Below, piece after piece: positions 2,317-39,757 of a stretch of DNA of 42,007 bases. The translations under genes and the position numbers were made by a program. The DNA lies in NCBI GenBank assembly GCA_900018345.1, contig FCNA01000121.1, positions 1 to 42,007 on the forward strand. The letters are read 5' to 3'. The stretch comes from Clostridiales bacterium CHKCI006. GTDB lineage: Bacteria; Bacillota_I; Bacilli_A; Erysipelotrichales; Coprobacillaceae. The number at the start of each line of letters is the position of its first letter. Position 1 is the stretch's first letter. Under the pieces are notes generated by a model. The model did no database searches. It had not been told where the DNA came from and was given only the letters and a program-made list of their open reading frames with translations.

Positions 2317-2335
2317 CTCATCTACCTTGTTCTTA

Positions 2336-2374
2336 GCTTGTTTTCAGTTTATGCTTGTTTAAAGTAAAAGCCAA
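2336..2374 (-). promoter_or_regulatory. Promoter of peptide-binding copy 1 with direct repeat
   Basis: -35 TTGGCT (2369-2374), 17-base spacer, -10 TAAACT (2346-2351). An 8-base direct repeat (plus strand GCTTGTTT at 2336-2343 and 2353-2360, period 17) brackets the -10, a plausible binding site for a regulator. Confidence 0.6.
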
Positions 2375-2497
2375 CATATTTTTAGTTTATTTTAATATAT
2401 TTTAATAAGAATTATTATTTATCTAATATTATGCGATACTATTTGATTAGTACTTTTTTTGAAGTATTTTTCCTGATTTATGTGATTGAAAAAATAT

Positions 2498-2525
2498 AAA
2501 AAAAGAGATGGATTTGCTCCATCTC
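2498..2525 (-). terminator. Intrinsic terminator after peptide-binding copy 2
   Basis: GAGATGGA (2505-2512) pairs with TCCATCTC (2518-2525), loop of five, followed on the minus strand by seven T. It begins eight bases after the stop at 2533. Confidence 0.9.
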
Positions 2526-2532
2526 CATGCTA

Positions 2533-4395
2533 CTAGCTGTTATATTGTTGTGCAGCTTCTCTGGCTGCTTCACGTCCCGCTTCATATTCAGCGCGGAACT
2601 GTTCATGTTCCTCAGCCGTCACCGCATGATCCGTACCCACAATGCCTTTCCATTTATATGTATCAATACCGGTTGGGGCATATGGACGGGTGAACTCATT
2701 AATAGAAGTTACAATGTAAGTTCCGCCAGCTGTATAAAGCGGAATATAATAGGCATTTTCATTCAGCCAGGATTCAATATTCGCGAATGCAGTATATCTT
2801 TCCTGCAGATCAGTAATGGCATCGGCAGCAGTCACCATTTCATCAAATTCTGTATAATTCCAGTGGCTATTCCCTAAAGACATCGTCGTGCCATTATTCA
2901 TCGTACCATTAGTCATGATACTAGCCAAGTTATTGAAAGGATCCGCATAGTCTGGTGCCCATCCACTGACAGCTAAAGCGAATTCGCCATCCTGTCTTTG
3001 CGAAGAGAAAGTGGCAGAAGAATACTCCGTCAAAGTGACCGTCACATAGTCAGTCCCTAAAGCCTGAATCGCTTCCTGCAATAAACGAGCTGATTGCGCA
3101 CGGGTCTCGTTGCCGGCTGGTACTGCTAAAGTTAAATTAATTGGGAAGGATACTCCCTGTGCCGTCAATTCTTCAATCGCCTGCTGTTTGTACTGCTCAG
3201 CTGTTTCTAAATTAAACTGGCTAGTCTGCCATTGGGCGGAGTTACCCAGATCCAGATAATCCGTTCCATCCGGTGCCGTGACAAAACCACGTCCTGTATA
3301 GCTGAAAGCTTCAATCGATTCCGGATTGATTGGATTGGATACTTCATTGTACATATCGCGATCGATTCCATAGAATAAAGATCTTCTGAAGTTCACGTTG
3401 CTTAAAGCAGCGTTCGTATCTTCACTGTAATTCGTACGGTTATTCATGAAGATCACGTACGTACTGTTCTCCAATTCCTGCTGAATCAGATATTCACTAC
3501 CCTCTTCATACAAACGCTGTGCCTGTGTCGTCAATAATGGTGCATAGCTGGCTTCGCCGCGTGTGAAGGCTTCATAAATGGATTCCTGGTCACGATAGTA
3601 AAGCACATTGACCTCGTCAAAATGTACATCCTCCACATCCCAGTAATTTTCGTTCTTAGAAAAACGTCTGATCGAACCCGGTGTTAATTCATCTAAGATA
3701 AAGGCACCACAGTATAAGAAGTTGTCCTTGTTGTTACCAAAGCTGCTTGTGCCATCATCCTGAGCGGACATCGATTCTACAAATTGACGATTCGCTGGAT
3801 AGTAAGCTGCATAACAGCAGACAGATGTAAAATAAGGTACCGGCTTGCTCATCGTGTATTGAACGGTATATTGATCTAAGGCTTTGACACCTACGCCCTC
3901 AAAGCTTGGCTGTTCGCCAACGCTGCCGCCATCGCGCCAGGCGGCCATCGCATCATAGTATTCCTGTGCGCCTTCGATCATGGTCGTGTAGCTTTGCAGG
4001 TTATTGGAAGTTTCGGCTGGATCCAAAATAAACTCCGCAGAATAAACAAAGTCATCGGCTGTCACTTCGGCATAGACTTCCTTACTGGAAGTCATCCACT
4101 GGACGCCTTCTCTTAGATGGAAGGTCCAAACCGTATAATCCTCATTATGTTCCCAGCTTTCGGCTAAAGATGGGACAATATTGCCATAGTTATCCTGCTC
4201 TACCAGACCATCGACCAGATTGGCTGTAATCTGGAAATCGGCTGCCGCATAACTATAGAGATAATTCAGTGTTGAATAATCACTGGATGAAATGGCATAG
4301 TCGTTAAACACATTTGGATCATAGGATGCTTCTTCATTTGAACAACCCGCTAGAAGCATGCTTGAAACCAGTAAAGCACTTATGGCTTTTTTCAT
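2533..4395 (-). CDS. Oligopeptide-binding lipoprotein, OppA family, copy 2
   Basis: A 620-residue lipoprotein with signal peptide MKKAISALLVSSMLLAGC (lipidated Cys18) and the full SBP_bac_5 fold, the same length as copies 1 and 3. Its role is peptide capture at the outer face of the membrane. It is closest to copy 3. Several long stretches are identical at the DNA level, including third codon positions, for example 3310-3450 against 5340-5480 and 3880-3985 against 5925-6030, while the intervening stretches differ. That mosaic points to gene conversion. The ribosome binding site is a GGGGGA run before the ATG. It has its own promoter (4423-4451) and terminator. As with its siblings, no transporter partner is nearby. 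Confidence 0.93.
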   Translation of the reverse strand: MKKAISALLVSSMLLAGCSNEEASYDPNVFNDYAISSSDYSTLNYLYSYAAADFQITANLVDGLVEQDNYGNIVPSLAESWEHNEDYTVWTFHLREGVQWMTSSKEVYAEVTADDFVYSAEFILDPAETSNNLQSYTTMIEGAQEYYDAMAAWRDGGSVGEQPSFEGVGVKALDQYTVQYTMSKPVPYFTSVCCYAAYYPANRQFVESMSAQDDGTSSFGNNKDNFLYCGAFILDELTPGSIRRFSKNENYWDVEDVHFDEVNVLYYRDQESIYEAFTRGEASYAPLLTTQAQRLYEEGSEYLIQQELENSTYVIFMNNRTNYSEDTNAALSNVNFRRSLFYGIDRDMYNEVSNPINPESIEAFSYTGRGFVTAPDGTDYLDLGNSAQWQTSQFNLETAEQYKQQAIEELTAQGVSFPINLTLAVPAGNETRAQSARLLQEAIQALGTDYVTVTLTEYSSATFSSQRQDGEFALAVSGWAPDYADPFNNLASIMTNGTMNNGTTMSLGNSHWNYTEFDEMVTAADAITDLQERYTAFANIESWLNENAYYIPLYTAGGTYIVTSINEFTRPYAPTGIDTYKWKGIVGTDHAVTAEEHEQFRAEYEAGREAAREAAQQYNS

Positions 4396-4416
4396 TTAAT
4401 TCTCCCCCTTTTCTAC

Positions 4417-4451
4417 TTAGAAAGTCTAATTCTAAATGTGATTTATGTCAA
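4417..4451 (-). promoter_or_regulatory. Promoter of peptide-binding copy 2 with inverted repeat
   Basis: -35 TTGACA (4446-4451), 17-base spacer, -10 TAGACT (4423-4428). A 6-7-6 inverted repeat, TTAGAA-N7-TTCTAA (4417-4435), sits over the -10, where a repressor would block RNA polymerase. Confidence 0.7.
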
Positions 4452-4531
4452 TGGTGTGATAAGATTTTCCTAATTTTTACGAATTTGTATATGATTATCC
4501 TAATTCTTAGGTCGCTATGTGTCTTTTTTTA

Positions 4532-4562
4532 ACAAAACGAGAGGGATGACACGCCATCCCTC
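4532..4562 (-). terminator. Intrinsic terminator after peptide-binding copy 3
   Basis: GAGGGATG (4541-4548) pairs with CATCCCTC (4555-4562), loop of six. The minus-strand continuation CGTTTTGTT is T-rich but interrupted. Confidence 0.75.
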
Positions 4563-4570
4563 CCTCAGAC

Positions 4571-6433
4571 TTAACTATTGTATTGCTGCGCTGCCTCTCT
4601 GGCTGCTTCACGTCCTGCTTCATATTCAGCGCGGAACTGTTCATGTTCCTCAGCCGTCACGGCATGATCCATACCCACAATACCTTTCCATTTATAGTCA
4701 TCGATACCAGTTGGTGCATATGGGCGCGTGAATTCGTTGATCGAAGTCACAATATAAGTGCCGCCACCCTGATAAAGTGGAATATAGTAGGCATTCTCAT
4801 TTAACCAGGCTTCGATATTCGCGAAAGCGGTATATCTTTCCTGCAGATCAGTAATCTGGTCAGCGGCATTGACCATTTCGTCGAACTCCGTGTAATCCCA
4901 GTGACTGGAACCTAAGGCCATCGTTGTACCATTGTTCATCGTACCATCCGTCATAATGCTGGCAAGGTTGTTGAAAGGATCGGCATAGTCTGGTCCCCAT
5001 CCACCGGTTGTCAAAGCAAATTCACCATCACGTCTTTGTTGAGTGCTTGTGGCAGAGGTATATTCTACAAAGCTGACTGTCACATAATCGGTGCCTAAAG
5101 CCTGAATCGCTTCCTGAAGCAGTCTTGCCTGCTGTGCTCGTGTCTCATTTCCGGCTGGAACACCTAAGGTCAGATTAATTGGGAAGGATACTCCCTGTGC
5201 TGTCAATTCTTCAATCGCCTGCTGTTTGTACTGTTCAGCCTTGGTCATATCAAACTGACTGGTCTGCCATTGTTTGGAGTTACCCAGATCTAGATAATCC
5301 GTTCCATCCGGTGCCGTGACAAAACCACGTCCTGAATAGCTGAAAGCTTCAATCGATTCCGGATTGATTGGATTGGATACTTCATTGTACATATCGCGAT
5401 CGATTCCATAGAATAAAGATCTTCTGAAGTTCACGTTGCTTAAAGCAGCGTTCGTATCTTCACTGTAATTCGTACGGTTATTCATGAAGATCACGTAAGA
5501 TCCGCTGTCGAGTTCTTTTTGAATCAGATACTCACTCTCTTCATCATAGAGACGCTGTGCCTGTGTCGTCAATAATGGTGCGTAACTGGCTTCGCCGCGT
5601 GTGAAGGCTTCATAAATGGATTCCTGGTCACGATAGTAAAGCACATTGACCTGATCAAAATGTACATCCTCCACATCCCAGTAATTTTCGTTCTTAGAAA
5701 AACGTCTGATCGAACCCGGTGTTAATTCATCTAAGATAAAGGCACCACAGTATAAGAAGTTGTCCTTGTTGTTACCAAAGCTGCTCGTACCATCGTCCTG
5801 AGCGGACATCGACTCAACGAACTGACGATTCGCTGGGTAAAAAGCTGCATAGCAGCATACCGAAGTAAAGTATGGTACCGGTTTGCTCATCGTGTATTGA
5901 ACGGTATATTGATCGAGGGCTTTGACACCTACGCCCTCAAAGCTTGGCTGTTCGCCAACGCTGCCGCCATCGCGCCAGGCGGCCATCGCATCATAGTATT
6001 CCTGTGCGCCTTCGATCATGGTCGTATAGCTTTGTAGGTTATTGGAAGTTTCGGCTGGATCCAGGATGAACTCAGCAGAATAAACAAAGTCATCGGCAGT
6101 CACTTCGGCATAGACTTCCTTACTTGAAGTCATCCACTGAACCCCTTCTCTTAGATGGAAGGTCCATTGGGTATAGTCTTCATTGTGTTCCCAGCTTTCG
6201 GCTAAAGATGGGACAATGTTACCGTAATTGTCCTGTTCCACTAAACCATCGACCAAATTGGCTGTGATCTGAAAATCGACTGCAGCAAAACTGTAGAGAT
6301 AATTCAGTGTCGAATAGTCTGTTGATGAGATTGCATAGTCATTAAAAACTTTTGGATCATAAGACGTGTCACTACTCGAGCAGCCCGCTAGAAGCATGCT
6401 GGAGATAAGCAGAGCATTCATCGCTTTCTTCAT
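4571..6433 (-). CDS. Oligopeptide-binding lipoprotein, OppA family, copy 3
   Basis: A 620-residue SBP_bac_5 lipoprotein. The frame is open to 6493, but the ATG at 6433 is the start: it follows a GAGGGGGAA ribosome binding site, gives a clean lipoprotein signal (MKKAMNALLISSMLLAGC, Cys18) and matches the 620-residue length of copies 1 and 2. The upstream extension would read through the promoter. It is the closest relative of copy 2, with long identical DNA blocks. Differences cluster in short stretches, for example DEESEYLIQKELDSGSY here against EEGSEYLIQQELENSTY in copy 2, possibly sites that shape peptide specificity. Monocistronic, with promoter at 6465-6493 and terminator at 4532-4562. 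Confidence 0.93.
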   Translation of the reverse strand: MKKAMNALLISSMLLAGCSSSDTSYDPKVFNDYAISSTDYSTLNYLYSFAAVDFQITANLVDGLVEQDNYGNIVPSLAESWEHNEDYTQWTFHLREGVQWMTSSKEVYAEVTADDFVYSAEFILDPAETSNNLQSYTTMIEGAQEYYDAMAAWRDGGSVGEQPSFEGVGVKALDQYTVQYTMSKPVPYFTSVCCYAAFYPANRQFVESMSAQDDGTSSFGNNKDNFLYCGAFILDELTPGSIRRFSKNENYWDVEDVHFDQVNVLYYRDQESIYEAFTRGEASYAPLLTTQAQRLYDEESEYLIQKELDSGSYVIFMNNRTNYSEDTNAALSNVNFRRSLFYGIDRDMYNEVSNPINPESIEAFSYSGRGFVTAPDGTDYLDLGNSKQWQTSQFDMTKAEQYKQQAIEELTAQGVSFPINLTLGVPAGNETRAQQARLLQEAIQALGTDYVTVSFVEYTSATSTQQRRDGEFALTTGGWGPDYADPFNNLASIMTDGTMNNGTTMALGSSHWDYTEFDEMVNAADQITDLQERYTAFANIEAWLNENAYYIPLYQGGGTYIVTSINEFTRPYAPTGIDDYKWKGIVGMDHAVTAEEHEQFRAEYEAGREAAREAAQQYNS

Positions 6434-6458
6434 ATGGTTTCCCCCTCTTTGTTTTGAT

Positions 6459-6493
6459 GGTTTCAGTGTACACCGGAAACCACTTAATGTCAA
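6459..6493 (-). promoter_or_regulatory. Promoter of peptide-binding copy 3 with 23-nt palindrome
   Basis: -35 TTGACA (6488-6493), 17-base spacer, -10 TACACT (6465-6470). An inverted repeat GGTTTC-N11-GAAACC (6459-6481) covers the -10 and part of the spacer, a good candidate operator. Its sequence differs from the repeats at copies 1 and 2. Confidence 0.7.
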
Positions 6494-6783
6494 TACATAT
6501 TTGTTATTTATTTAATTATTTTATTTATATTTTGGATTTACACAAATATCCAAGCTATCTTTTTATTCATTTCATATTCTTCCGGAATAGCCTAATTAAT
6601 ATTTATTTATTGTCTAAATAATTTTTTATCGTTTCTTGCTTTCATTCAAACAAATCACCTCAGGACGATACCTGACATGTCTCCCGAATATTTCTGCAAA
6701 CGATAAAACGTCATTCCTGAGTGAGATGATTTTGCTTTATTCAACCTATAGCTTATTCTATGCTATGCACAATGATTTAGCAC
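6494..6783. other. Gene-free stretch with a long-range inverted repeat
   Basis: No convincing open frame in about 290 AT-rich bases between the copy 3 promoter and the copy 4 terminator. The only structure seen is an inverted repeat: AAATCA-C-CTCAGGA (6652-6665) against TCCTGAG-N5-TGATTT (6715-6732), about 49 bases apart, with a small hairpin CAGG-N6-CCTG inside. No U-tract follows either side, so it is not a simple terminator. Confidence 0.35.
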
Positions 6784-6814
6784 AAAAAAAGGTCAAACCT
6801 TGATTTGACCTTTT
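6784..6814 (-). terminator. Intrinsic terminator after pseudogene copy 4
   Basis: GGTCAAA (6791-6797) pairs with TTTGACC (6804-6810), loop of six, flanked by A7 and T4 so the stem can extend and work in both directions. The minus side has seven T. Confidence 0.85.
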
Positions 6815-6826
6815 AAAGCGATTTTG

Positions 6827-8690
6827 TTAACTGTTATATTGCTGTGCTTCTTCATAGGCTGCTTGTCTGCCTGCTTCATACTCTTCTCTAAACTGTTCAT
6901 GTTCTTCTGCCGTCACCGCATGATCCAAACCGACAATGCCTTTCCACTTATACTCATCAATGCCGGTTGGGGCATATGGTCGCGTGAATTCATTGATGGA
7001 AGTCACAATGTATGTACCACCCGACTGATACAATGGAATATAATAAGCATTCTCATTCAACCAGGCTTCGATATTGGCAAAGGCGGTATATCTTTCCTGT
7101 AGATCTGTCATTTGATCTGCAGCTTCGACCATTTCATCGAACTTTGCATAATCCCAATGGCTTGATCCTACCGACATAGAATTCGCACTGTTCATCGTAC
7201 CATCCGTCATGATGCTTGCTAGGTTATTGAATGGATCCGCATAGTCTGGACCCCATCCACCAACAACCAAAGCAAACTCACCATCCTGGCGTTGCTGGGA
7301 GTAGGATGACGAAGTATACTCTACAAAGCTTACCGTCACATAATCGGTTCCTAAAGCTTGGATTGCTTCCTGCAAAAGTCTCGCCTGCTGAGCACGCGTT
7401 TCATTTCCGGTCGGAACTGCCAATGTTCATTCAATCGGGAATGATACCCCCTGAGCTGTCAATTCCTCAATGGCAAGTTGGTTATACTTTTCGGCAGTCT
7501 CTAAATCAAACTGACTGGTCTGCCATTGAGCGGAATCGCCCAGATCCAGATCATCCGTTCCATCTGGCGCCGTGACAAAACCACGTCCTGAATAGCTGAA
7601 GGCTTCAATCGATTCCGGATTGATCGGGTTAGATACTTCATTGTACATATCGCGATCGATTCCATAGAATAAGGATCTTTTGAAGTTCACATTACTTAAA
7701 GCCGCATTTGTGTCCTCACTATAACCAGTTTGATTATTCATAAAGATGACATAGGAACTGCTATCCAATTCTTCTTGAATCAAATACTCACTGTCTTCAT
7801 CATATAAGGATTGCGCCTGTGTCGTCAATAATGGCGCGTAACTGGCTTCGCCGCGTGAAGGCTTCATAAATGGATTCCTGGTCACGATAGTAAAGCACAT
7901 TGACCTGATCAAAATGTACATCCTCCACATCCCAGTAACTTTCATTCTTAGAAAAACGTCTGATCGAATCCGGTGTTAATTCATCTAAGATAAGGGCACC
8001 ACAGTATAAGAAGTTGTCCTTGTTGTTACCAAAGCTGCTGGTGCCATCATCCTGAGCGGACATCGATTCTACGAATTGACGATTGGCTGGATAGAAAGCC
8101 GCATAACAACATACTGAAGTGAAATATGGAACGGATTTGCTCATTGTATATTGCACGGTATACTCATCTAAGGCTTTGACACCAACACCCTCAAAGCTTG
8201 GCTGCTCACCGACGCTGCCGCCATCACGCCATTCAGTCATCGCATCATAGTATTCCTGTGCGCCTTCGATCATGGTCGTGTAGCTTTGCAGGTTATTCGA
8301 AGTTTCAGCCGGGTCGAGAATAAACTCTGCTGAATAAACGAAGTCATCTGCGGTGACTTCACCGTAAACTTCACGATCCGAAGTTAACCATTGAACCCCT
8401 TCTCTTAGATGGAAGGTCCAAACCGTATAATCTTCGTTATGTTCTCAACTGGTCGCCAATGAAGGAACGATATTTCCATAGTTATCCTGCTCCACTAAAC
8501 CATCGACCAGATTGGCTGTGATCTGGAAGTCGGCAGCAGAAAAACTATACAAATAGTTCAATGTCGAATAATCACTCGATGAGATCGCATAGTCATTAAA
8601 GACCGTGGGATCATAGCTCGCTTCCTGATTGGAACAACCCGTCGTAACTAGCATACTAGCCATAAGCAAAGCGCTCACTGTACTTTTCAT
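6827..8690 (-). pseudogene. Disrupted oligopeptide-binding lipoprotein, OppA family, copy 4
   Basis: This covers the full length of the family (equivalent to 621 residues) but carries three lesions against the intact copies. (1) A TGA at 8445-8447 replaces the Trp codon of the conserved AESWEHN motif. (2) Two bases are missing in the GTGTG tract near 7855, shifting the frame after YEAFTR. (3) A TGA at 7427-7429 follows FPIE, where the other copies have Leu. Frames before, between and after are otherwise intact and well conserved. The signal peptide survives (MKSTVSALLMASMLVTTGC, Cys19), as do a -35/-10 pair (8718-8747) and a terminator, so inactivation looks recent. A sequencing error could explain one lesion but hardly all three. 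Confidence 0.9.
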
Positions 8691-25652: not shown

Positions 25653-26837
25653 CTATTTGGCAAGGACATCACTGATGATCTGTTTCAAATAATCCAGTGA
25701 TGTCGTACGGAATAAATAAACATGGTTACCCATGGCAGCAGCCAGCGCCTCAGGTACTTCCACATCCAGCAACATGGCATCATGATGCATCGCATAGATC
25801 TCATCATGATGATAACGATAGGACCAGCCATTGCGTCTTGAAGCATAGCCGACCACATATTTACGCTCAACCGGATAATCAATGCGATCATGAATCAGCA
25901 TATCTGCCCATAAGGCATAGACATCTACATCACAGGCATAGTTGATCATATCAGGCATATATGCCCCAGGTGCTCGCATATTGACTTCCAGGCCTAAAAT
26001 ATCACCCTTTTTGCCCAGACCCTCTTTATCCTGGTCTAAGCGGAAAAATTCAAAATGATAGAACCGGCTGCGGGTATCAAAAGCCTGAACAGCCTTTTTG
26101 CCGACTTCGTATAGATCCATGCCTTCGATCCACTGTGAATGGAAGGCCGTATCCGTGTTATCGTTGACCGTATCCATGATGGAGTTCAGCATCACATGGC
26201 TGGAACAGATCAATATATTTTTATGCGAATCAGTCACCCCATCAAAGGTCTCAACATGACCGGGCACAAATTCTTCCATGATGAATTGAATATCCTTTTT
26301 CGTGGCAAAGAAATAATCCAGATCTTCATCACTTTTCAACTTATAGGTCTCACTGGCCCCAACCCCATTATCGGGCTTGACAACAACCGGATAACCGACG
26401 CGCGCAATAAAAGCCTTAGCATTTTCATAAGTGCTCACAAGCGCATAGCGTGCAGTGGGAATGCCTGCTTTGGCATAGACGGCCTTCATCTTGCTTTTAT
26501 ATTTCATATCAGCCATCTCTTCGTATTTTGTCCCGGTGGTGACATTAAAATCCGTTCGCAAGCGTCCTTCGGTCTCCAGCCAGTATTCATTTTCAGATTC
26601 GATCCAGTCGATCTTACCATACTGATGCGTAAAATAACCACAGGCGCGATAAACTTCCTCATAGTTTTCCAGGCTGCCCACCTGATAATACGCCGTCAGC
26701 GACTGTTTGCACTCTGGAGCAAGGCTCTCATAACTGGCATCTCCGATACCTAATACATTGACTCCTTTTTCCTTTAAACGATCACAGAAATTCCAAAAAT
26801 ACAAAGGAAAATTAGGAGATAAAAAGACTACGTTCAT
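25653..26837 (-). CDS. ATP-grasp protein, carbamoyl-phosphate-synthase-like (B)
   Basis: 394 residues, an ATP-grasp ligase-like enzyme with a pre-ATP-grasp N-terminal domain (about 1-110) and a central ATP-grasp fold. ATP/Mg sites visible: Lys154 (PVVVKPDNGVGAS), Glu188-Glu189 (FIMEEF) and Glu284/Asn286 (GLEVNMRAPG). Such enzymes activate a carboxylate as acyl phosphate and join it to an amine or similar nucleophile; the substrates here are unknown. It aligns without gaps through these motifs to the paralogue at 27623-28807. The ATG at 26837 is chosen over one three codons upstream because it matches the paralogue's start and lies nine bases from AAAGGA. It is the third gene of the operon, 15 bases after the esterase. 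Confidence 0.9.
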   Translation of the reverse strand: MNVVFLSPNFPLYFWNFCDRLKEKGVNVLGIGDASYESLAPECKQSLTAYYQVGSLENYEEVYRACGYFTHQYGKIDWIESENEYWLETEGRLRTDFNVTTGTKYEEMADMKYKSKMKAVYAKAGIPTARYALVSTYENAKAFIARVGYPVVVKPDNGVGASETYKLKSDEDLDYFFATKKDIQFIMEEFVPGHVETFDGVTDSHKNILICSSHVMLNSIMDTVNDNTDTAFHSQWIEGMDLYEVGKKAVQAFDTRSRFYHFEFFRLDQDKEGLGKKGDILGLEVNMRAPGAYMPDMINYACDVDVYALWADMLIHDRIDYPVERKYVVGYASRRNGWSYRYHHDEIYAMHHDAMLLDVEVPEALAAAMGNHVYLFRTTSLDYLKQIISDVLAK

Positions 26838-26852
26838 CCTTTCCATTCCTTT

Positions 26853-27608
26853 CTATAATAAATGACCTAAAAAATAAGGGAACTGCACGCGCCACCATGG
26901 CCAATCATGATTGACATCATATCCCCAGAAATCAATCCAGGCCGGCACATCCTTATAATCCAATAATTCTTTTAAACGTGAAGTTGAACGGATCATATCG
27001 TCCTCCCAGGCTCCCTGACCCGTACAAATGATGATGGAATGGTGACGATACTGCTCCACATAAGGATGATCATAGCTCATTCCGTTAATGAAATCAATTG
27101 GCGAGTTCTGATAGACCAAATCATCCATATAACCATGGAAGAACATATCGGCACTATAATAACCGCTGAGCGCAATCACAGCATCGAAAATATCCGGTCT
27201 GCGGAAGAAGAAGTTCGCGGCATGCGTCGCTCCCATGGAACATCCGGTCGTCAAAAGCCCGCTGGCATACTGACCCCCATTCCCACTGGCATTTTTCGCA
27301 TAAATATAAGGAACCAGCTCTTCGCAGATATAACGATACCAGGCTTCATGCCGCTCGATCCGCCATCTTGGGTCCCCGGCTTCATTGGACCAGGTCTCCC
27401 CATCGATGCTGTCTACGCAGAAAAGCTGCAGCTTGCCCTCTTCAATAAAAGAGGCGCAGGCATCCACCATACCAAAGTTTTCAAAATCAAAGAAACGTCC
27501 ATTCTGTGCCGGGAAAACCAAACATGGCTTACCGGCATGCCCATAGATATTCACCTCCATCTCTCTGCCTAATTGATGACTATATGCTTTATAGTATTCT
27601 TTATTCAT
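26853..27608 (-). CDS. Esterase, alpha/beta-hydrolase fold (PF00756-like)
   Basis: 251 residues, no signal peptide, so cytosolic. The nucleophile elbow is GCSMGATHA with Ser124. The catalytic His is probably His234 (DVNHDWPWW), and the acid is Asp203/204 or Glu202 (QGAWEDDM). The spacing fits the putative esterase family that includes esterase D and mycolyltransferase-like folds. It lies between two paralogous ATP-grasp genes (gaps of 14 and 15 bases), so it may hydrolyse or transfer an ester or thioester made or used by them. The start ATG at 27608 lies nine bases after AAGGGGA. Substrate unknown. Confidence 0.9.
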   Translation of the reverse strand: MNKEYYKAYSHQLGREMEVNIYGHAGKPCLVFPAQNGRFFDFENFGMVDACASFIEEGKLQLFCVDSIDGETWSNEAGDPRWRIERHEAWYRYICEELVPYIYAKNASGNGGQYASGLLTTGCSMGATHAANFFFRRPDIFDAVIALSGYYSADMFFHGYMDDLVYQNSPIDFINGMSYDHPYVEQYRHHSIIICTGQGAWEDDMIRSTSRLKELLDYKDVPAWIDFWGYDVNHDWPWWRVQFPYFLGHLL

Positions 27609-27622
27609 TGTTTCAAATCCCC

Positions 27623-28807
27623 TTATCCCTGTACAAATTCAATAAATGGCTGCACCTCACCTGGATCGGTAAAACGTGCGGTATAGAAAGTATTGCCCAT
27701 CGCATCAGCGAGGATCTCCGGCATCCTTTCCTGCATCACCATATTTGTCCCATAACGTGCCATGATTTCTTCATGTGTATGCGTATAATGATGCCCATCG
27801 CGTCTTGAAGCATAGACGCAAGTATATTTTCTTTCAAAAGGCGGTTGATGATTCTTACCATATGTCACCATATCGGCATACATCTGATAGATATCACAAT
27901 CATTCGCGTAGTTCATCATGTCCGGCGTATAGCCTCCCGGTGTACGCATATTCACTTCCAGACCAACGATCTCGCCCTTTTTACCTAACCCTTCCTTATC
28001 CTCATTGAGGCGGAAGAACTCAAAATGGAAGCAGCGTCCGCGCACATCGAAAGCTTTGAGGGTGCGCCGTCCGGCATCCAAAAGATCAGCGGGAATGTCT
28101 TTTTGTGAATAATAAGCCAGATCATCCGAATCATTGACGATATTCATGATCGGTTCAGGAAACAGATGTGATGTTTCAAAAACCACTTCGTTATCCAGAT
28201 CGACGATCCCATCATAGGATTCGATCGTCCCGTTCACAAATTCCTCCATGATATAAATCGTGCCATCTCTATGACTTAAAAAGAAAGCCAATTCCTCATC
28301 GCTGTTTAAACGATAAGTCGCACTGGCGCCTACCCCGATATCCGGTTTGACAATGACCGGATAACCCACACGATGCGCAAAATCGTAAGCGCCGCCATCA
28401 TTTTCAATCACATAATAACGTGCCGTAGGTACTCCGGCTTTTTCATAAAAAGCCTTCATTGCCGATTTTGCCTTGAAATCACGAATATGGGCATTCTGCA
28501 TGCCGGTCGTGATATTAAAATCCGTTCGCAGCGCCGCATCGGATTCCAACCAGTACTCGTTATTCGACTCGAGCCAATCGATCTTACCATATTTAAAAAT
28601 AAAGTAACCCATTGCTCTGACTTTTTCATCGTAGTTTTCAAGACTGTTGACCTTATAATATTCTGTCAGACTGCCTCTTAGTTCTGGTGAGAGCGCATCA
28701 TAGGGTGTATCTCCAATTCCTAAGACATTCACGCCGTTTTTCTTCAAGCGATCACAAAAGTTCCAATACGATTTAGGAAACTGTGGTGATATAAAAACAA
28801 AATTCAT
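27623..28807 (-). CDS. ATP-grasp protein, carbamoyl-phosphate-synthase-like (A)
   Basis: 394 residues, paralogous to the product of 25653-26837 with the same length and motif positions: Lys154 (PVIVKPDIGVGAS), Glu188-Glu189 (YIMEEF), Glu284/Asn286 (GLEVNMRTPG). Both also share NFCDRLK near residue 20 and YASRR near 335. It is the first gene of the four-gene operon, with a GGGAGGG ribosome binding site and an extended -10 promoter at 28840-28845. Two copies kept side by side suggest they form a heterodimer or carry out two successive ligations. They differ from each other most around residues 200-250 and at the C-terminus. They lack the features of D-Ala-D-Ala ligases, and the small-molecule substrates cannot be named. 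Confidence 0.9.
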   Translation of the reverse strand: MNFVFISPQFPKSYWNFCDRLKKNGVNVLGIGDTPYDALSPELRGSLTEYYKVNSLENYDEKVRAMGYFIFKYGKIDWLESNNEYWLESDAALRTDFNITTGMQNAHIRDFKAKSAMKAFYEKAGVPTARYYVIENDGGAYDFAHRVGYPVIVKPDIGVGASATYRLNSDEELAFFLSHRDGTIYIMEEFVNGTIESYDGIVDLDNEVVFETSHLFPEPIMNIVNDSDDLAYYSQKDIPADLLDAGRRTLKAFDVRGRCFHFEFFRLNEDKEGLGKKGEIVGLEVNMRTPGGYTPDMMNYANDCDIYQMYADMVTYGKNHQPPFERKYTCVYASRRDGHHYTHTHEEIMARYGTNMVMQERMPEILADAMGNTFYTARFTDPGEVQPFIEFVQG

Positions 28808-29080: not shown

Positions 29081-29605
29081 ATGGCTTTATTAGAATTGCA
29101 ACCTAGTCGAGATGTTCAAGCGATCTCACAATTCCTACACAAATGCTTTCCCGAAAACGAACTGCGTTCCCAAAAGGATCTGGAAAGACTATTGAATCAG
29201 CCCACATTTCATACCTGGTGTTATATCGAAAACGATCAAATACAGGCAGTTCTTTGTGGCTTTGTTTTCGAGGAATATGTTTTCTTCGAGTTTCTGGCCG
29301 TCGATGAAGCTTTACGTGGACAGGGCATGGGTAGAAACATATTGATGCAGGTCATCGAAGAACTCGCCAAACCGGTCATCTTAGAAGTCGAACCTATGCA
29401 TGATACCAATAGTCAGCGACGCATCCGCTTTTATGAACGCTTAGGATTTCACCTTTGTGATACCCCTTACCGCATGCCTAAACTCGATGAAACCCATGGG
29501 GATCTCGAACTCAAGCTGATGAGCTATCCCGATCCTCTCACGCCTGAACAATTTCAACAACGCGTCCAACACATTTATCGCTATGTTTATGAGAAGACCA
29601 TTTAG
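29081..29605 (+). CDS. GNAT-family N-acetyltransferase
   Basis: 174 residues with one GNAT domain. The acetyl-CoA pyrophosphate loop is RGQGMGRNIL (about 88-97), preceded by the beta-4 strand EFLAVDEALRG and followed by ILEVEPMHD and RRIRFYERLGFH, the usual C-terminal half of the fold. It transfers an acetyl group from acetyl-CoA to an amine; the substrate is not predictable. An ATG at 29072 lies inside the AAAGGATG site, so 29081 is preferred. It converges with the Cof-type phosphatase gene, the two stops overlapping by three bases within a shared terminator. It has its own promoter and palindrome. Confidence 0.9.
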   Translation: MALLELQPSRDVQAISQFLHKCFPENELRSQKDLERLLNQPTFHTWCYIENDQIQAVLCGFVFEEYVFFEFLAVDEALRGQGMGRNILMQVIEELAKPVILEVEPMHDTNSQRRIRFYERLGFHLCDTPYRMPKLDETHGDLELKLMSYPDPLTPEQFQQRVQHIYRYVYEKTI

Positions 29606-29614
29606 TGGTCTTCT
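29592..29614. terminator. Bidirectional terminator over two overlapping stop codons
   Basis: AGAAGACCA (29592-29600) pairs with TGGTCTTCT (29606-29614), loop TTTAG. The loop holds the GNAT stop (TAG, 29603-29605) and the phosphatase stop (complement of TTA, 29602-29604). Plus side: TTCTTTAAA; minus side: TTCTCAT. Confidence 0.65.
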
Positions 29615-30459
29615 TTAAACATCCAATCGATGGCTTCTGCAACCCCATCCTCTTCACAATTGGCAACTACCCGATAAGCCATCTCCTTGATGGCCTTTTC
29701 AGCGTTTCCCATGGCAAAAGAATACGGGAAGCGTTCAAACATGGTCACATCATTAAAGGCATCTCCCAGTACCATGACCTCTTCTTTAACCAGCCCCAAC
29801 AACTGAATAGCCTCTTCCAGGATCAGCCCTTTTTGCGCATGGGCGTCGGTCACTTCCACATTGTCTGAGTAGCTGGAAAGATAGGCGATCCCGGTTAATT
29901 GGCTCAGCTGCTTTTTGGCCTTGACGATCAATTCTTCATTGATTGAGAAGGCTTCGACCTTGATGATGTCATGCGCTTCCTGTAAGAAAGCATCCACATC
30001 ATGGATCTTGATTAGCTGCATACAGGGCATCGGTCCACGGGAGAGCGTCTGTTCACGACTGCGTCCAAAACGGTGCATACAGCGTTGAATAAAAGCCTCG
30101 CACACATCGGCTGGATCATGAGTAGCATAGAATCCATCCGCAGCAAAGATCATATAGTGAATGCCCAAATCGTCAAAGATCTTGGTGACAGGCTTAAATA
30201 ATGACGGATCAAGATAAGCTGTCTTTAAAAGTCGATCGTTTTCATCCACAAATTGTGCGCCATTGCCTAAGATGGCCAAGGCGGATAATTGACACTGATT
30301 CAAAATTTCTCTGACACTCGACAGTTCACGTCCGGTCGCTACAACCAGTTTGGCTCCCTTGGCGATAGCCCGCTGTAAAGCCGCCCGATTTCCTGGAGAA
30401 ATCGTTCCTTGTGCATTTAATAATGTGCCATCCATATCTGACACGATCCATTTGATCAT
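29602..30459 (-). CDS. HAD-superfamily hydrolase, Cof/YidA subfamily
   Basis: 285 residues, cytosolic. HAD motif I is SDMDGTLLN with nucleophile Asp8 and acid/base Asp10. Motif II is in VVATGRELS, and motif IV is LGDAFNDVTMFE. The central C2-type cap (about residues 85-190) places it in the Cof subfamily, sugar-phosphate or nucleotide phosphatases with broad activity. The frame is open six codons further, but the ATG at 30459 lies eight bases from AAAGGGG and puts motif I at the usual position. Upstream is a TATAAT box (30489-30494). The real substrate is not predictable; neighbouring sugar genes would fit a hexose-phosphate. Confidence 0.93.
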   Translation of the reverse strand: MIKWIVSDMDGTLLNAQGTISPGNRAALQRAIAKGAKLVVATGRELSSVREILNQCQLSALAILGNGAQFVDENDRLLKTAYLDPSLFKPVTKIFDDLGIHYMIFAADGFYATHDPADVCEAFIQRCMHRFGRSREQTLSRGPMPCMQLIKIHDVDAFLQEAHDIIKVEAFSINEELIVKAKKQLSQLTGIAYLSSYSDNVEVTDAHAQKGLILEEAIQLLGLVKEEVMVLGDAFNDVTMFERFPYSFAMGNAEKAIKEMAYRVVANCEEDGVAEAIDWMFKEDH

Positions 30460-30477
30460 ATTGAAGACCCCTTTCAT

Positions 30478-30735: not shown

Positions 30736-30758
30736 AAGGTTTCGCCAGGCGAAACCTT
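30736..30758 (-). terminator. Perfect intrinsic terminator of the small peptide unit
   Basis: AAGGTTTCGCC (30736-30746) and GGCGAAACCTT (30748-30758) form an 11-bp perfect inverted repeat around one base. The minus strand continues TTATTATAC after the stem's terminal Ts. It lies 43 bases after the 38-codon ORF and ends no larger gene. Confidence 0.85.
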
Positions 30759-30801
30759 AACCCATATCGATCCACACATTTCAGCTAACCAAACCTACCT
30801 G

Positions 30802-30918
30802 CTAAGCCCATCCTTCATCAGGAGCGATAAAATGCGTTGGGAAAATGGGGGCTTGTTCATCGAGATCCTTGACCATTTCAAGTGCAACCCCCTCTTCTAT
30901 CTGCTCATTCTCATCCAT
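30802..30918 (-). CDS. Small acidic peptide, 38 aa, unknown; possible signal or precursor peptide
   Basis: An ORF of 38 codons, starting MDENEQIEEG and ending FIAPDEGWA. Its first 22 residues are strongly acidic; the last 16 are hydrophobic and proline-containing (APIFPTHFIAPDEGWA), the layout of a leader plus core. The ATG at 30918 is five bases after AGAGGGA; an ATG two codons upstream sits too close to that site. There is no signal peptide and no cysteine. It lies in a self-contained unit: promoter (31048), a 15-codon ORF, this ORF, then a perfect terminator. The unit directly follows a gene for an HTH/helical-repeat regulator that resembles peptide receptors. Function is not known; a signalling or modified peptide is inference. 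Confidence 0.6.
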   Translation of the reverse strand: MDENEQIEEGVALEMVKDLDEQAPIFPTHFIAPDEGWA

Positions 30919-30971
30919 GCTCATCCCTCTTTTCCATTCCCATTTCTCTTTAAGTCATCACACGTAGGCAC

Positions 30972-31019
30972 TCAGTGAACCATACGCATCTTTTTCCATG
31001 TTTTTGGTTTTAAAGACAT
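30972..31019 (-). CDS. Very short cationic ORF, 15 aa, upstream of the 38-aa peptide
   Basis: An ORF of 15 codons (MSLKPKTWKKMRMVH) with a good ribosome binding site, GAGGGA five bases before the ATG at 31019. It is strongly basic. It lies about 22 bases downstream of the inferred transcription start and 53 bases before the next small ORF, so it could be a leader peptide, part of a two-peptide system, or chance. Its conservation is unknown. Confidence 0.35.
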   Translation of the reverse strand: MSLKPKTWKKMRMVH

Positions 31020-31047
31020 CTCGTTCCCTCAACAGGATACGAATCTC

Positions 31048-31053
31048 ATTATA
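31048..31053 (-). promoter_or_regulatory. -10 box of the small peptide unit
   Basis: TATAAT on the minus strand (31048-31053), with only a weak -35 (TTTATT at 17 bases). The transcript would start near 31041 and run about 300 bases to the terminator at 30736. Confidence 0.55.
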
Positions 31054-31111: not shown

Positions 31112-32413
31112 CTAAAGCATTTGATGTTGGCGTAATAACTCACTTCTCTTACTGATCGGGGCCAATTCGATCAGCTCATGATAGAAAATGCTATAAAAGA
31201 AGGGGTCGGAATCTAATTTCTGCAGAATATGTTCTACCAGGATATCCTCCAGATACCTGGCATCTGCGCGGGCAATGGCAATCAGATTCCATTTGTATTG
31301 CAGATAGCGCACAAAGGCCTGTATAATACCCTCAGGCAAAGGCATTTCTAAAGCAGAGAGCAGTTCCTGAAAAGGACGTCTAGGCAAATGACATTTTTCG
31401 ATACAGTAAGCCATTAGCGGGAGCGGCCAGTAAGTGCGTTCTGGCTGAGCCTGACAAAAAGATTCATAAGCCTGAAGATAAGACTGTTCATATAAATGAA
31501 ACATCCCTTGAATAAAAGCCAGACGCACCTGGTAGTAGGGTTGTCTGAGAAGCACGTAACGGTTAAGCAAAAAACGGCATCGCGCCAGACAGTTGGCTGC
31601 TTTGGACTGGGCATGGCTCTGAACCAGCGCTAAAGCGAGATAACTATAATAATCAAATTGTAAGCTACATTGTCTAGGATAATCCGGATGCAAGCGCAGC
31701 CACTTCAACGCATCGATGGCATGATCAAGCTGCATACGTTTTAAATAAAACAAATACCGCGATCGAATGACCAGGATTCGATTCGAAGCCAGATAAGGTA
31801 AACGATTGAGGGGCAACTGCTTTGTTTGGATAGCATAGATCGTTAAAATAAAGCTTAATAATTCATTGAAATACCCCAGCTCAGAAACATCAACCTCTGC
31901 CAGCGCCTGAAAAAGCAAGGCTTCCTCAAGCGTTGGCAGACGGAAATAACGGAAATAAAGCAAACAGGCTCTAAGCAGCCATAAGACTTCCTGATAAACC
32001 AGATAGTCTTTGTAACGATCCAGATCTAAATCGATCTGTTTAAGCAGCTGATCCAATGTCGCTTCATCCGGATAGACAAGTGCGGCATAGACGCTCGCTA
32101 TCTCTTTTTCAAGTTGGATTCCAAATTGCTGCTTATAAAGAAAACGTTTGGAAAAAATAGTACTGATGCATTCATATACAAAATCATTGTGATCCACCTC
32201 ACCCTTCTCAATCGCAGTCAGCTTGGCTGGTGAACAGATGAATGGCTTATTCAGCTTACGCTGATAGATGGCTTTCAGCTCTTGAATCTCAGTTGTATTG
32301 GTCCTGACAATTTCTTTAAGCGTCAGCCGCTTATAGGAAGGCGGAAAGTGAAGATGTGTCCGATAATATTTTAAAAGACACCCGGCTAGACGTTTGAATG
32401 TCGTTTCATCCAT
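31112..32413 (-). CDS. HTH regulator with helical-repeat C-terminus, RRNPP-like (paralogue 1)
   Basis: 433 residues. The N-terminal region (about 1-80) resembles an XRE-type DNA-binding domain: LTLKEIVRTN and CSPAKLTAIEKGEVDHNDF, the latter like the recognition helix and ErG turn of that family. The remaining 350 residues are all-helical with repeated YF/LxxA patterns, as in TPR-like sensor domains. This domain order is that of Rgg/PlcR/ComR-type receptors that bind imported peptides in the cytosol. It is paralogous to 33603-34910, with the same length and matching ends. The start at 32413 fits that paralogue, but the ribosome binding site is poor, which suggests weak or coupled translation. 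No clear promoter lies between it and the galE terminator. Downstream is the small peptide unit. Peptide sensing is inferred from architecture. Confidence 0.75.
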   Translation of the reverse strand: MDETTFKRLAGCLLKYYRTHLHFPPSYKRLTLKEIVRTNTTEIQELKAIYQRKLNKPFICSPAKLTAIEKGEVDHNDFVYECISTIFSKRFLYKQQFGIQLEKEIASVYAALVYPDEATLDQLLKQIDLDLDRYKDYLVYQEVLWLLRACLLYFRYFRLPTLEEALLFQALAEVDVSELGYFNELLSFILTIYAIQTKQLPLNRLPYLASNRILVIRSRYLFYLKRMQLDHAIDALKWLRLHPDYPRQCSLQFDYYSYLALALVQSHAQSKAANCLARCRFLLNRYVLLRQPYYQVRLAFIQGMFHLYEQSYLQAYESFCQAQPERTYWPLPLMAYCIEKCHLPRRPFQELLSALEMPLPEGIIQAFVRYLQYKWNLIAIARADARYLEDILVEHILQKLDSDPFFYSIFYHELIELAPISKRSELLRQHQML

Positions 32414-33602: not shown

Positions 33603-34910
33603 TTACATTTCATGGAACTGCAGGACATATTGCATGTGACGTGTGAGCGGACTTAAGATCAGCAATTGCCGGTAAAAGAGAGCATAAGTCAAAAGTCCAC
33701 TATCCAAAAAAGGCAGGATATTCTCCACCAGAAATTTTTCAAGCAGCAGCGCCTCTTTACGACCAATGGTATCATAGCTGTATTTGAGCCGAAAGTATTT
33801 GGCATACTCCAGTTTAAAACCGGACATGTGAACAAAGTCCACCCATTCCAATAACTGGCGGCATTGCGCTAACGGTAATTCCAGCCGCTCGGCACAATCC
33901 ATAACATAAGGAAAAGCTTGCAAAACAAGATCAGGACTCCATTTCAATGCCTTTTGCAGCATGGAGAGCGCATTGGCATACTGATGGTGTGCATAAAAAT
34001 GCATGCCTAGATTATGATAATAGCGTCCCTGGACATGCAGACACCCATTGAGGCGTCCACTTTCCAAAAGTTTTCTACAAGCCTGCAGCTCACCGACCGC
34101 CTGCGTGGAACAGCTATTTTCATATATCAATGCCTGATGATTGTGATAGATAAACTGGAGATAAGGAGAGCTCGCATAGGTGGCAAGCTCGCGGATCATC
34201 TGCAGTGTCTTCTTGGCAAGATCCACCTGATAATGATCCATATAGGCTTTAAAACGCAGCTCTAAACTTAAAAAATCGCGCTGATTGCCTAAAGCACATT
34301 CGATTTCTGCCAGGGTAACTCCCGGCTGGCCCATTTTGCGATGATATTCCGATTTCATATATAAGAGTAAACTGTCCAGCTCTAGCATACCTGTTGGTAA
34401 AAGGGCCTCCATTTTTCTTTGCAGTTCAGCCTTAGGCAAGACCCGTTCGTTTAGATAAGTCAGTACGGCAGACAGGATCTCCAACATTTCGCCATAGACA
34501 AGATAATGCGAAAGTTTCTGATACTGAGATCTCAACTGGCGGTTTAATCTTGCCAGGCCTTCTTTTTCCATGCGCGTCATCTCATCCACGATGGCCTGGA
34601 TATCCTTTTTCAGATTGAGCCAGTAGATCTCCTTATAGAGATATTTGCGCGCATACACACTGGCCAGACATTCAATCACATAATCTTCCATCGAATCCTG
34701 ACCGTTTTCGATGTCACTGATGCGAGAGGTAGAACAGATACTTTTCTGATTGAGCCGCACCCCATTTTCTGCCCGAATTTCCTGAATACGTGCAGAATTC
34801 AACCGTGATAGCTCACGAATCGACAGTCCAACCTTCCCATTAGGATGACGATAGTTCTCACGGTAATAGCGTAACAAACGACCGGTAATGATCTGAAAAG
34901 CACGTTCCAT
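33603..34910 (-). CDS. HTH regulator with helical-repeat C-terminus, RRNPP-like (paralogue 2)
   Basis: 435 residues, same architecture as 31112-32413. The N-terminal XRE-like HTH has LSIRELSRLNSARIQEI and CSTSRISDIENGQDSMEDY; an all-helical sensor-like region of about 350 residues follows, with TPR-like units such as GRYYHNLGMHFYAHHQYANA and LQKALKW. It ends LYRQL-type like its paralogue (ALFYRQLLILSPLTRHMQ). The ribosome binding site (AAGGAGG) is strong, unlike paralogue 1. The gene begins 57 bases after glmM and directly behind its terminator, so expression may depend on read-through. No small peptide ORF with a ribosome binding site was found next to it. Likely a cytosolic regulator; ligand and targets are unknown. 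Confidence 0.75.
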   Translation of the reverse strand: MERAFQIITGRLLRYYRENYRHPNGKVGLSIRELSRLNSARIQEIRAENGVRLNQKSICSTSRISDIENGQDSMEDYVIECLASVYARKYLYKEIYWLNLKKDIQAIVDEMTRMEKEGLARLNRQLRSQYQKLSHYLVYGEMLEILSAVLTYLNERVLPKAELQRKMEALLPTGMLELDSLLLYMKSEYHRKMGQPGVTLAEIECALGNQRDFLSLELRFKAYMDHYQVDLAKKTLQMIRELATYASSPYLQFIYHNHQALIYENSCSTQAVGELQACRKLLESGRLNGCLHVQGRYYHNLGMHFYAHHQYANALSMLQKALKWSPDLVLQAFPYVMDCAERLELPLAQCRQLLEWVDFVHMSGFKLEYAKYFRLKYSYDTIGRKEALLLEKFLVENILPFLDSGLLTYALFYRQLLILSPLTRHMQYVLQFHEM

Positions 34911-38872: not shown

Positions 38873-38909
38873 AAAAGAAAAAGGGCCGATCAGCTTCTAC
38901 TGATCAGCC
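38873..38909 (-). terminator. Intrinsic terminator of the amino-sugar operon
   Basis: Minus strand GGCTGATCAG / CTGATCGGCC forms a 10-bp stem (38900-38909 and 38884-38893, one G-U pair), loop of six, then CTTTTTCTTTT. The stop codon of the last gene (38897-38899) lies in the loop. Confidence 0.85.
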
Positions 38910-39331
38910 TCACTACTCGATGATTTCGCATGATAATGTCGATAAGCCTTACTGCGTTTGACACGCAAGATGTCTTCTTCTCCCGGAAAATAGAAAGGAT
39001 TCAGATGGGTCTGCAAAAACGCAGTCAGAATATCCTTTGCATCCGTATATAATTCCTCCACTTCCATGGTACCGTACATCTTTGGTGGTAAAAGATACAC
39101 CGGCTTTTTATCCTGAATATAATCAGCAACGTATTGTTTGATTCGATATTTCTGATGTGGACAGACCATGATCACATCCGCTTCATCCAGATGGTCACGC
39201 GAGAATTCAAAAGGACAAAAATCCACCGCGACTTCATCCTGCAATCCTTTGGCTTCAATTTCTTTTTTCACTTTCACTGATAATGCACTGCTGGAAAAAC
39301 CACCACCACAGCAGATCAGTATTCTCAACAT
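38897..39331 (-). CDS. PTS EIIB component, lactose/cellobiose class (paralogue 1)
   Basis: 144 residues. The phosphocysteine loop is at the N-terminus (ILICCGGGFSSSALS; Cys8 in the C-x-x-G-x-S arrangement), followed by an alpha/beta fold with MVCPHQKYRIKQY. EIIB takes phosphate from EIIA and gives it to the sugar during uptake. At 144 residues it is longer than the usual 100-105 because of a C-terminal extension of about 35 residues (NPFYFPGEEDILRVKRSKAYRH) shared with its neighbour. It is the last gene of the anmK-kinase-EIIB-EIIB operon, 18 bases after its paralogue, with a weak ribosome binding site (AAAGAGATG). No EIIA or EIIC is in the operon; the EIIC at 18956-20293 is a possible partner. 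Confidence 0.88.
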   Translation of the reverse strand: MLRILICCGGGFSSSALSVKVKKEIEAKGLQDEVAVDFCPFEFSRDHLDEADVIMVCPHQKYRIKQYVADYIQDKKPVYLLPPKMYGTMEVEELYTDAKDILTAFLQTHLNPFYFPGEEDILRVKRSKAYRHYHAKSSSSEADQ

Positions 39332-39349: not shown

Positions 39350-39757
39350 TTAATGTTTTGTATGTCGATAAGCCTTACTGCGTTTCACGCGCATGATATC
39401 CTCTTCTCCTGGAAAGTAGAAGGGATTCAGATGGGTTTTCTGGAAAGCATCGAGAATGTCTTTAGCATCCGCATACAATTCTTCGACTTCCATCGTACCA
39501 TACATCTTTGGCGGTAAAAGATAAACCGGTTTTTTATCCTGAACATAATCTGCAACATATTGCTTTACACGGTATTTTTGATGTGGACACACCATGACCA
39601 CATCAACATCATCTAAAAGGTCACTGGAAGTTCCAAATGGGCAAAAATCTACCTGCAGTTCATCCTGCAACCCTTTCTCTTCAATTTCTTTTTTCACCTT
39701 CACTGACATTGCACTGCTGGAAAAACCTCCAGCACAGCAAATTAAGATCCTGATCAT
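39350..39757 (-). CDS. PTS EIIB component, lactose/cellobiose class (paralogue 2)
   Basis: 135 residues, closely similar to the following gene. Phosphocysteine Cys8 is in ILICCAGGFSSSAMS, then MVCPHQKYRVKQY, and it has the same C-terminal extension (NPFYFPGEEDIMRVKRSKAYRH). The main differences are around residues 40-50 (FGTSSDLLDD here, FEFSRDHLDE in the other) and in the last few residues. Its ATG overlaps the stop of the kinase gene (ATGA, 39754-39757), so it is translationally coupled to the kinase. Two near-identical EIIBs suggest a recent duplication, perhaps serving two EIIC or EIIA partners. An anhydro-amino-sugar or disaccharide substrate is inferred only from the operon. Confidence 0.88.
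   Translation of the reverse strand: MIRILICCAGGFSSSAMSVKVKKEIEEKGLQDELQVDFCPFGTSSDLLDDVDVVMVCPHQKYRVKQYVADYVQDKKPVYLLPPKMYGTMEVEELYADAKDILDAFQKTHLNPFYFPGEEDIMRVKRSKAYRHTKH

Follow-up and report, generated by a model that had tools for sequence, protein, structure and literature searches.

The 433-aa regulator R1, encoded on the minus strand of the window (the whole analysed stretch of 42,007 nucleotides from Clostridiales bacterium CHKCI006), is very likely a peptide receptor of the RRNPP type, judging by its modelled fold, and it belongs to an unnamed family of HTH-TPR receptors within one bacterial order. The relatives of R1 and the peptide genes next to them form a consistent receptor-plus-propeptide family. 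Downstream of R1 itself lies a 38-codon ORF that is probably translated into a peptide, and it is plausible, albeit unproven, that this peptide is the cognate signal of R1, a reading that we hold tentatively. The R1 family is of more interest and value than its copy in the window. The features of the locus are the following:

33603-34910, minus strand: R2, a paralogue of R1 (27-29% identity) located between glmM and galE with no room for a peptide gene (sequence comparison, tree)
31112-32413, minus strand: R1, 433-aa regulator with N-terminal HTH-like helices and a TPR superhelix, RRNPP-type receptor fold (AlphaFold2 model, structural matches, family profile)
31053-31048, minus strand: TATAAT box, candidate -10 element of the peptide unit (sequence)
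31019-30972, minus strand: 15-codon ORF MSLKPKTWKKMRMVH with a GAGGG RBS ahead
30918-30802, minus strand: 38-codon ORF MDENEQIEEGVALEMVKDLDEQAPIFPTHFIAPDEGWA (MDENEQ...FIAPDEGWA), candidate leaderless signalling peptide or propeptide (GAGGG RBS, codon usage)
30758-30736, minus strand: intrinsic terminator stem-loop with a 10-11 bp stem (terminator scan)

A first AlphaFold2 model of R1, for which 3 sequences were aligned, proved too weak, with a pLDDT of 79 and top PDB matches at E 0.01, and was superseded by a model from an alignment of 26 sequences, which reached a pLDDT of 90.2 and a pTM of 0.88. The best structural match of the latter was peptide-bound RapF (Z 21.3 over 325 residues, 5.0 Å). 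Phage Rap proteins were also among the best matches and NprR followed at Z 18.3, so that the Rap and NprR matches span about 310-330 residues at Z 21.3-18.3. The best eight structural matches were all RRNPP receptors, and unrelated TPR proteins started at Z 16.6. The description of the regulator as peptide-receptor-like in the initial annotation thus agrees with the AlphaFold2 model, which matches Rap and NprR best. Foldseek alone was no more than suggestive (best E 0.0027). For the HTH region, the model contains helices between residues 3 and 86; its structural matches extend only over residues 90-433, and an alignment with PlcR that began at residue 7 used the weaker first model (pLDDT 79). 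R2 matches HTH_31 below the cut-off. Pfam TPR models did not match R1 and matched R2 below the cut-off, and R1 had no match in Pfam, NCBIfam or PHROGs. PMC10075063 places receptors at 250-500 aa and expects an RRNPP-type TPR superhelix; R1 is 433 aa long and has such a superhelix by fold.

The nearest relative of R1 is R2 in the same window, and the two form a clade with 100/100 support in the tree; all relatives found, R2 included, are distant. Neither single-protein queries nor queries with the R1/R2 alignment identified close relatives for a conservation test in the genome contigs, none were present in IMG/VR or plasmids, and no relatives of useful strength were found in other genomes of the same taxonomic family. 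A profile grown from R1 and its paralogues detected homologues, typically about 420 residues long, in 81 of the 316 genomes of the order, several of which carry more than one copy, and a few weaker ones in the wider class. Two more relatives are encoded in the same genome, R3 (L044:7479-8747) and R4 (L043:2092-3333), the latter flanked by two large genes that look, by eye, like ABC exporter genes. No secreted peptide gene was found adjoining R3 or R4. Erysipelotrichia are absent from the main text of two surveys of RRNPP systems (PMC10075063, PMC9765709), and none of the papers searched links an Erysipelotrich- lineage with RRNPP systems.

Next to the regulators of this family, we searched the intergenic DNA for small ORFs that follow an RBS and start with a signal-like segment, the signal being called by a simple hydrophobicity rule, not by SignalP. 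The sample comprised 74 regulators, some of them fragments or sharing a locus. An intergenic, RBS-preceded small ORF of the Sec type was present within 1 kb of 38 of them, mostly 88-200 nt downstream of the regulator on the same strand, and the precursors are 34-79 aa long. A signal combined with a C-terminal Cys-x(2-5)-Cys motif was found for 27 of the 74 regulators (46.9 kb of intergenic DNA), compared with none of 19 control loci (18.3 kb). Sec-type small peptides whose end shows a C-x2-P-x-C pattern, often followed by W, adjoin R1 homologues in many genomes of the order, such as CSSPDCMWQ (L013), CSPECWGV (L016) and CTPDCWL (L009), and a peptide of this kind is also encoded at L012. Further ends of this kind are CSSPGCWVIA (L073), CSFPECGFGG (L059) and CDSPECLDID (L027). 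The peptide at L010 has no cysteines in its tail, so cysteine-free tails exist in the family. The receptor-plus-peptide layout of the PlcR-PapR type, which the initial annotation had proposed for the window, is right for the family, because about half of the 74 regulators adjoin a secreted small ORF and 27 have one with the Cys motif. The order, in which 81 of 316 genomes carry the receptor family, would contain a variant of RRNPP-type signalling on which the main text of the surveys is silent. If the peptides with the Cys motif are signals, they represent a pheromone type with a possible disulfide, which would be unusual for ligands that act in the cytosol.

In the window, the 38-codon ORF lies 193 nt downstream of R1 on the same strand, within the ranges of 10-100 aa and -60 to 400 bp that PMC10075063 uses for small ORFs next to receptors. 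The Sec signal demanded at the strict level of the same scheme is absent from this ORF. An alternative ATG two codons upstream would extend it to 40 codons and lacks RBS spacing. All pieces on which the idea of a self-contained transcription unit had been built (TATAAT box, 15-codon ORF, 38-codon ORF, their ribosome binding sites and the terminator) are indeed present on the minus strand, but a scan upstream of the TATAAT box gave no match to a consensus -35 box, and the T tract of the terminator is broken (TTATTATACT). That the unit is self-contained we can only infer, because no terminator was found between R1 and the unit. The RNA folding of the unit is unremarkable (z -0.74), no Rfam family matches it and nothing indicates a structured RNA. 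A second copy of its intergenic DNA was not found in the genome.

Codon usage argues for translation of the 38-codon ORF, which scored 0.303 bits per codon, compared with 0.27 ± 0.14 for the genes of the window and -0.28 ± 0.18 for off-frames. No off-frame control out of 245 scored as high, and among 1000 shuffled ORFs with a length of 36 codons or more, 5 did; an RBS followed by ATG and 38 codons arises on the minus strand in 4.9% of shuffles. The 15-codon ORF scored -0.25, in the range of non-coding sequence. A 33-codon frame at 31059-30958 (minus strand), which overlaps the 15-codon ORF and has a TTG start and no spaced RBS, has a gene-like score of 0.33. Protein-level conservation of the small ORF, which had been named as a check, was not detected: the 40-aa form has no significant homologue among 315 genomes of the order (best E 0.19), none in phages and none elsewhere in its own genome, and the 38-codon ORF matches no Pfam or NCBIfam family. 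The small ORF could not pass such a test because it has neither a significant homologue nor a sound likeness to the family peptides.

The 38-codon ORF differs from the other peptides of the family in lacking both a signal sequence and cysteines, whereas peptides of the Cys-motif type combine a signal with C-x(2-5)-C near the end; no hydrophobic N-terminal stretch was found in it or in any upstream frame. Its tail, IAPDEGWA, has PDxxWx in common with SSPDCMWQ, the end of a peptide beside the nearest relatives of R1. Among 2862 small ORFs, 5 end in PDxx[WF]x, and each of these adjoins a family regulator (L010, L012, L013, L017 and the window); the motif was picked out once the data had been inspected. 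L012, L013 and L017 are the nearest relatives of R1 by tree path, with joining branches that are unsupported. A profile of the family peptides does not recognise the window ORF (E 20, rank 32 of 2862), its best local alignment to them is equalled by 18% of shuffles, and in the end-anchored comparison 2.6-5.5% of background ORFs and 13-16% of shuffled tails score as high; tests that do not use the motif were weak (p about 0.03-0.16). A likeness over the whole length to the L016 peptide, seen by eye (EEG-LE-V...P-W), failed shuffling. Kinship with the family peptides is suggested by the sequence but not established, because the tests are weak, the motif is post hoc and no homologue was detected in the 315 genomes. 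A Cys-type peptide encoded elsewhere in the genome was considered as a partner of R1 and rejected, as the sole significant match adjoins a different TPR protein. As a second TPR-peptide pair in the genome, unrelated to R1, L128 (G000:C106, minus strand) encodes a secreted Cys/His-rich peptide (MKKILSFLLVSILALTCTVGHCTHVHDENCGYNPETGEGCTHVCEYIDPKHEKNPHD) and a 475-aa TPR protein (1486-1674 and 53-1480, respectively).

Taken as a new signalling pair, as the initial annotation had suggested, R1 and the small ORF have the receptor fold, the family-wide layout and a coding-like ORF with RBS and terminator on their side, whereas homologues of the ORF and a sound likeness to the family peptides are missing. 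What we infer for the window peptide concerns its translation, processing, binding and regulatory outcome. R1 would act as a cytosolic HTH-TPR receptor, with the small peptide from the 38-codon ORF as the likeliest cognate signal. If PapR and NprX are a guide, the active part may be the C-terminal 7-9 residues (about FIAPDEGWA), which would bind in the TPR groove of R1, alter its DNA binding and autoregulate the unit. An SHP-like export route has no support, as the genome yielded no homologue of EcsB/PptB (PF05975), for which two control genomes gave matches. Because the window ORF lacks a signal sequence and the peptides of its relatives have one, the peptide would have to be exported by some other route or act inside the producing cell. 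Import is plausible with at least ten OppA-type oligopeptide-binding proteins in the genome, several of them in the window. It is possible, if rather doubtful, that the family is an undescribed RRNPP subfamily with secreted Cys-pair propeptides, and that the window pair forms a derived branch of it after losing the cysteines and the export signal. Such a branch would signal by another route or within the cell and, provided that the Cys-motif peptides are signals, would illustrate how signalling of this type can move on to a peptide without a signal sequence. The minus strand of the window also carries, at 454-8474, four OppA-type oligopeptide-binding lipoprotein genes in tandem, with an in-frame TGA in the fourth, and, at 38897-39331 and 39350-39757, two very similar tandem genes for proteins of 144 and 135 aa that look by eye like a sugar PTS IIB component.

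The absence of a statistically sound likeness to the family peptides, together with the lack of a terminator between R1 and the unit, would also fit an ORF in the 3' part of the R1 transcript that either encodes a genuine small protein or arose by chance and is in both cases unrelated to R1. We regard this as rather unlikely in view of the coding score of the 38-codon ORF and its position downstream of a receptor whose relatives have a peptide there. The locus could alternatively contain a split or decaying propeptide gene, whose hydrophobic part and cysteines were lost through a deletion or frameshift. The ancestral precursor would have begun about 92 nt after R1, in the lysine-rich stretch occupied today by the 15-codon ORF, and run to the present stop. 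Some appeal comes from the start at 92 nt, within the usual 88-200 nt, from the distance of about 72 codons between that ATG and the last stop, similar to the precursors of the relatives, and from the different frames of the two ORFs, with nothing hydrophobic remaining. However, the 38-codon ORF has retained gene-like codon usage, its own RBS and a terminator, no remnant of a signal sequence is present in any frame and R1 itself is intact, which makes decay unlikely.

The short ORFs and the terminator ahead of the downstream HAD phosphatase gene (29602-30477) are also what an RNA leader or attenuator acting on that gene would look like. We consider this highly improbable, since the HAD gene has a TATAAT directly upstream, about 250 nt past the terminator, the folding score and the Rfam search gave no indication of such an element and the HAD orthologues in genomes of the family have differing upstream genes. 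The acidic first half of the 38-codon ORF and two ATP-grasp genes 2-5 kb away could be cited for a RiPP precursor in which an acidic leader precedes a short core. We consider this very unlikely: the ATP-grasp genes match general models only and belong, together with an esterase and an M29 peptidase, to a separate cluster, and no recognised RiPP enzyme was found by Pfam among the neighbours examined. Nothing among these neighbours points to the RiPP-like product that had been offered as an alternative. The two ATP-grasp paralogues (25653-28807, minus strand) are 53% identical and flank the esterase gene, and in another genome a 54% identical ATP-grasp gene (L014:1482-2711) lies divergently beside an R1 homologue.

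HTH-TPR receptors that respond to peptide signals are well known from Bacillus and streptococci, and in PlcR-PapR and NprR-NprX of the Bacillus cereus group the C-terminus of the peptide serves as the ligand. In these two systems, a small same-strand ORF follows the receptor gene (PMC10075063), and R1 and the 38-codon ORF are similarly arranged, with the small ORF within about 200 nt. The likeness of R1 to PlcR and NprR is confined to the fold, with no detectable likeness in sequence, and PapR and NprX have a Sec signal, which the window ORF lacks. The peptides of Rgg-SHP and ComR-ComS resemble the window ORF in having no classical signal and are exported by PptAB in the known cases (PMC10075063, PMC9765709), but the genome is without an EcsB/PptB protein and the window ORF is acidic rather than strongly hydrophobic. 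RopB-LCP likewise combines a receptor with an adjoining leaderless peptide; LCPs are mostly hydrophobic peptides of 8-10 residues (PMC10518010), unlike the 38 residues with an acidic first half encoded in the window. Compared with Rap-Phr of Bacillus and phages, R1 and the window ORF differ in that Rap proteins have no DNA-binding domain and Phr peptides are exported by Sec, yet it is on peptide-bound RapF and phage Rap that the TPR part of the R1 model superposes best.
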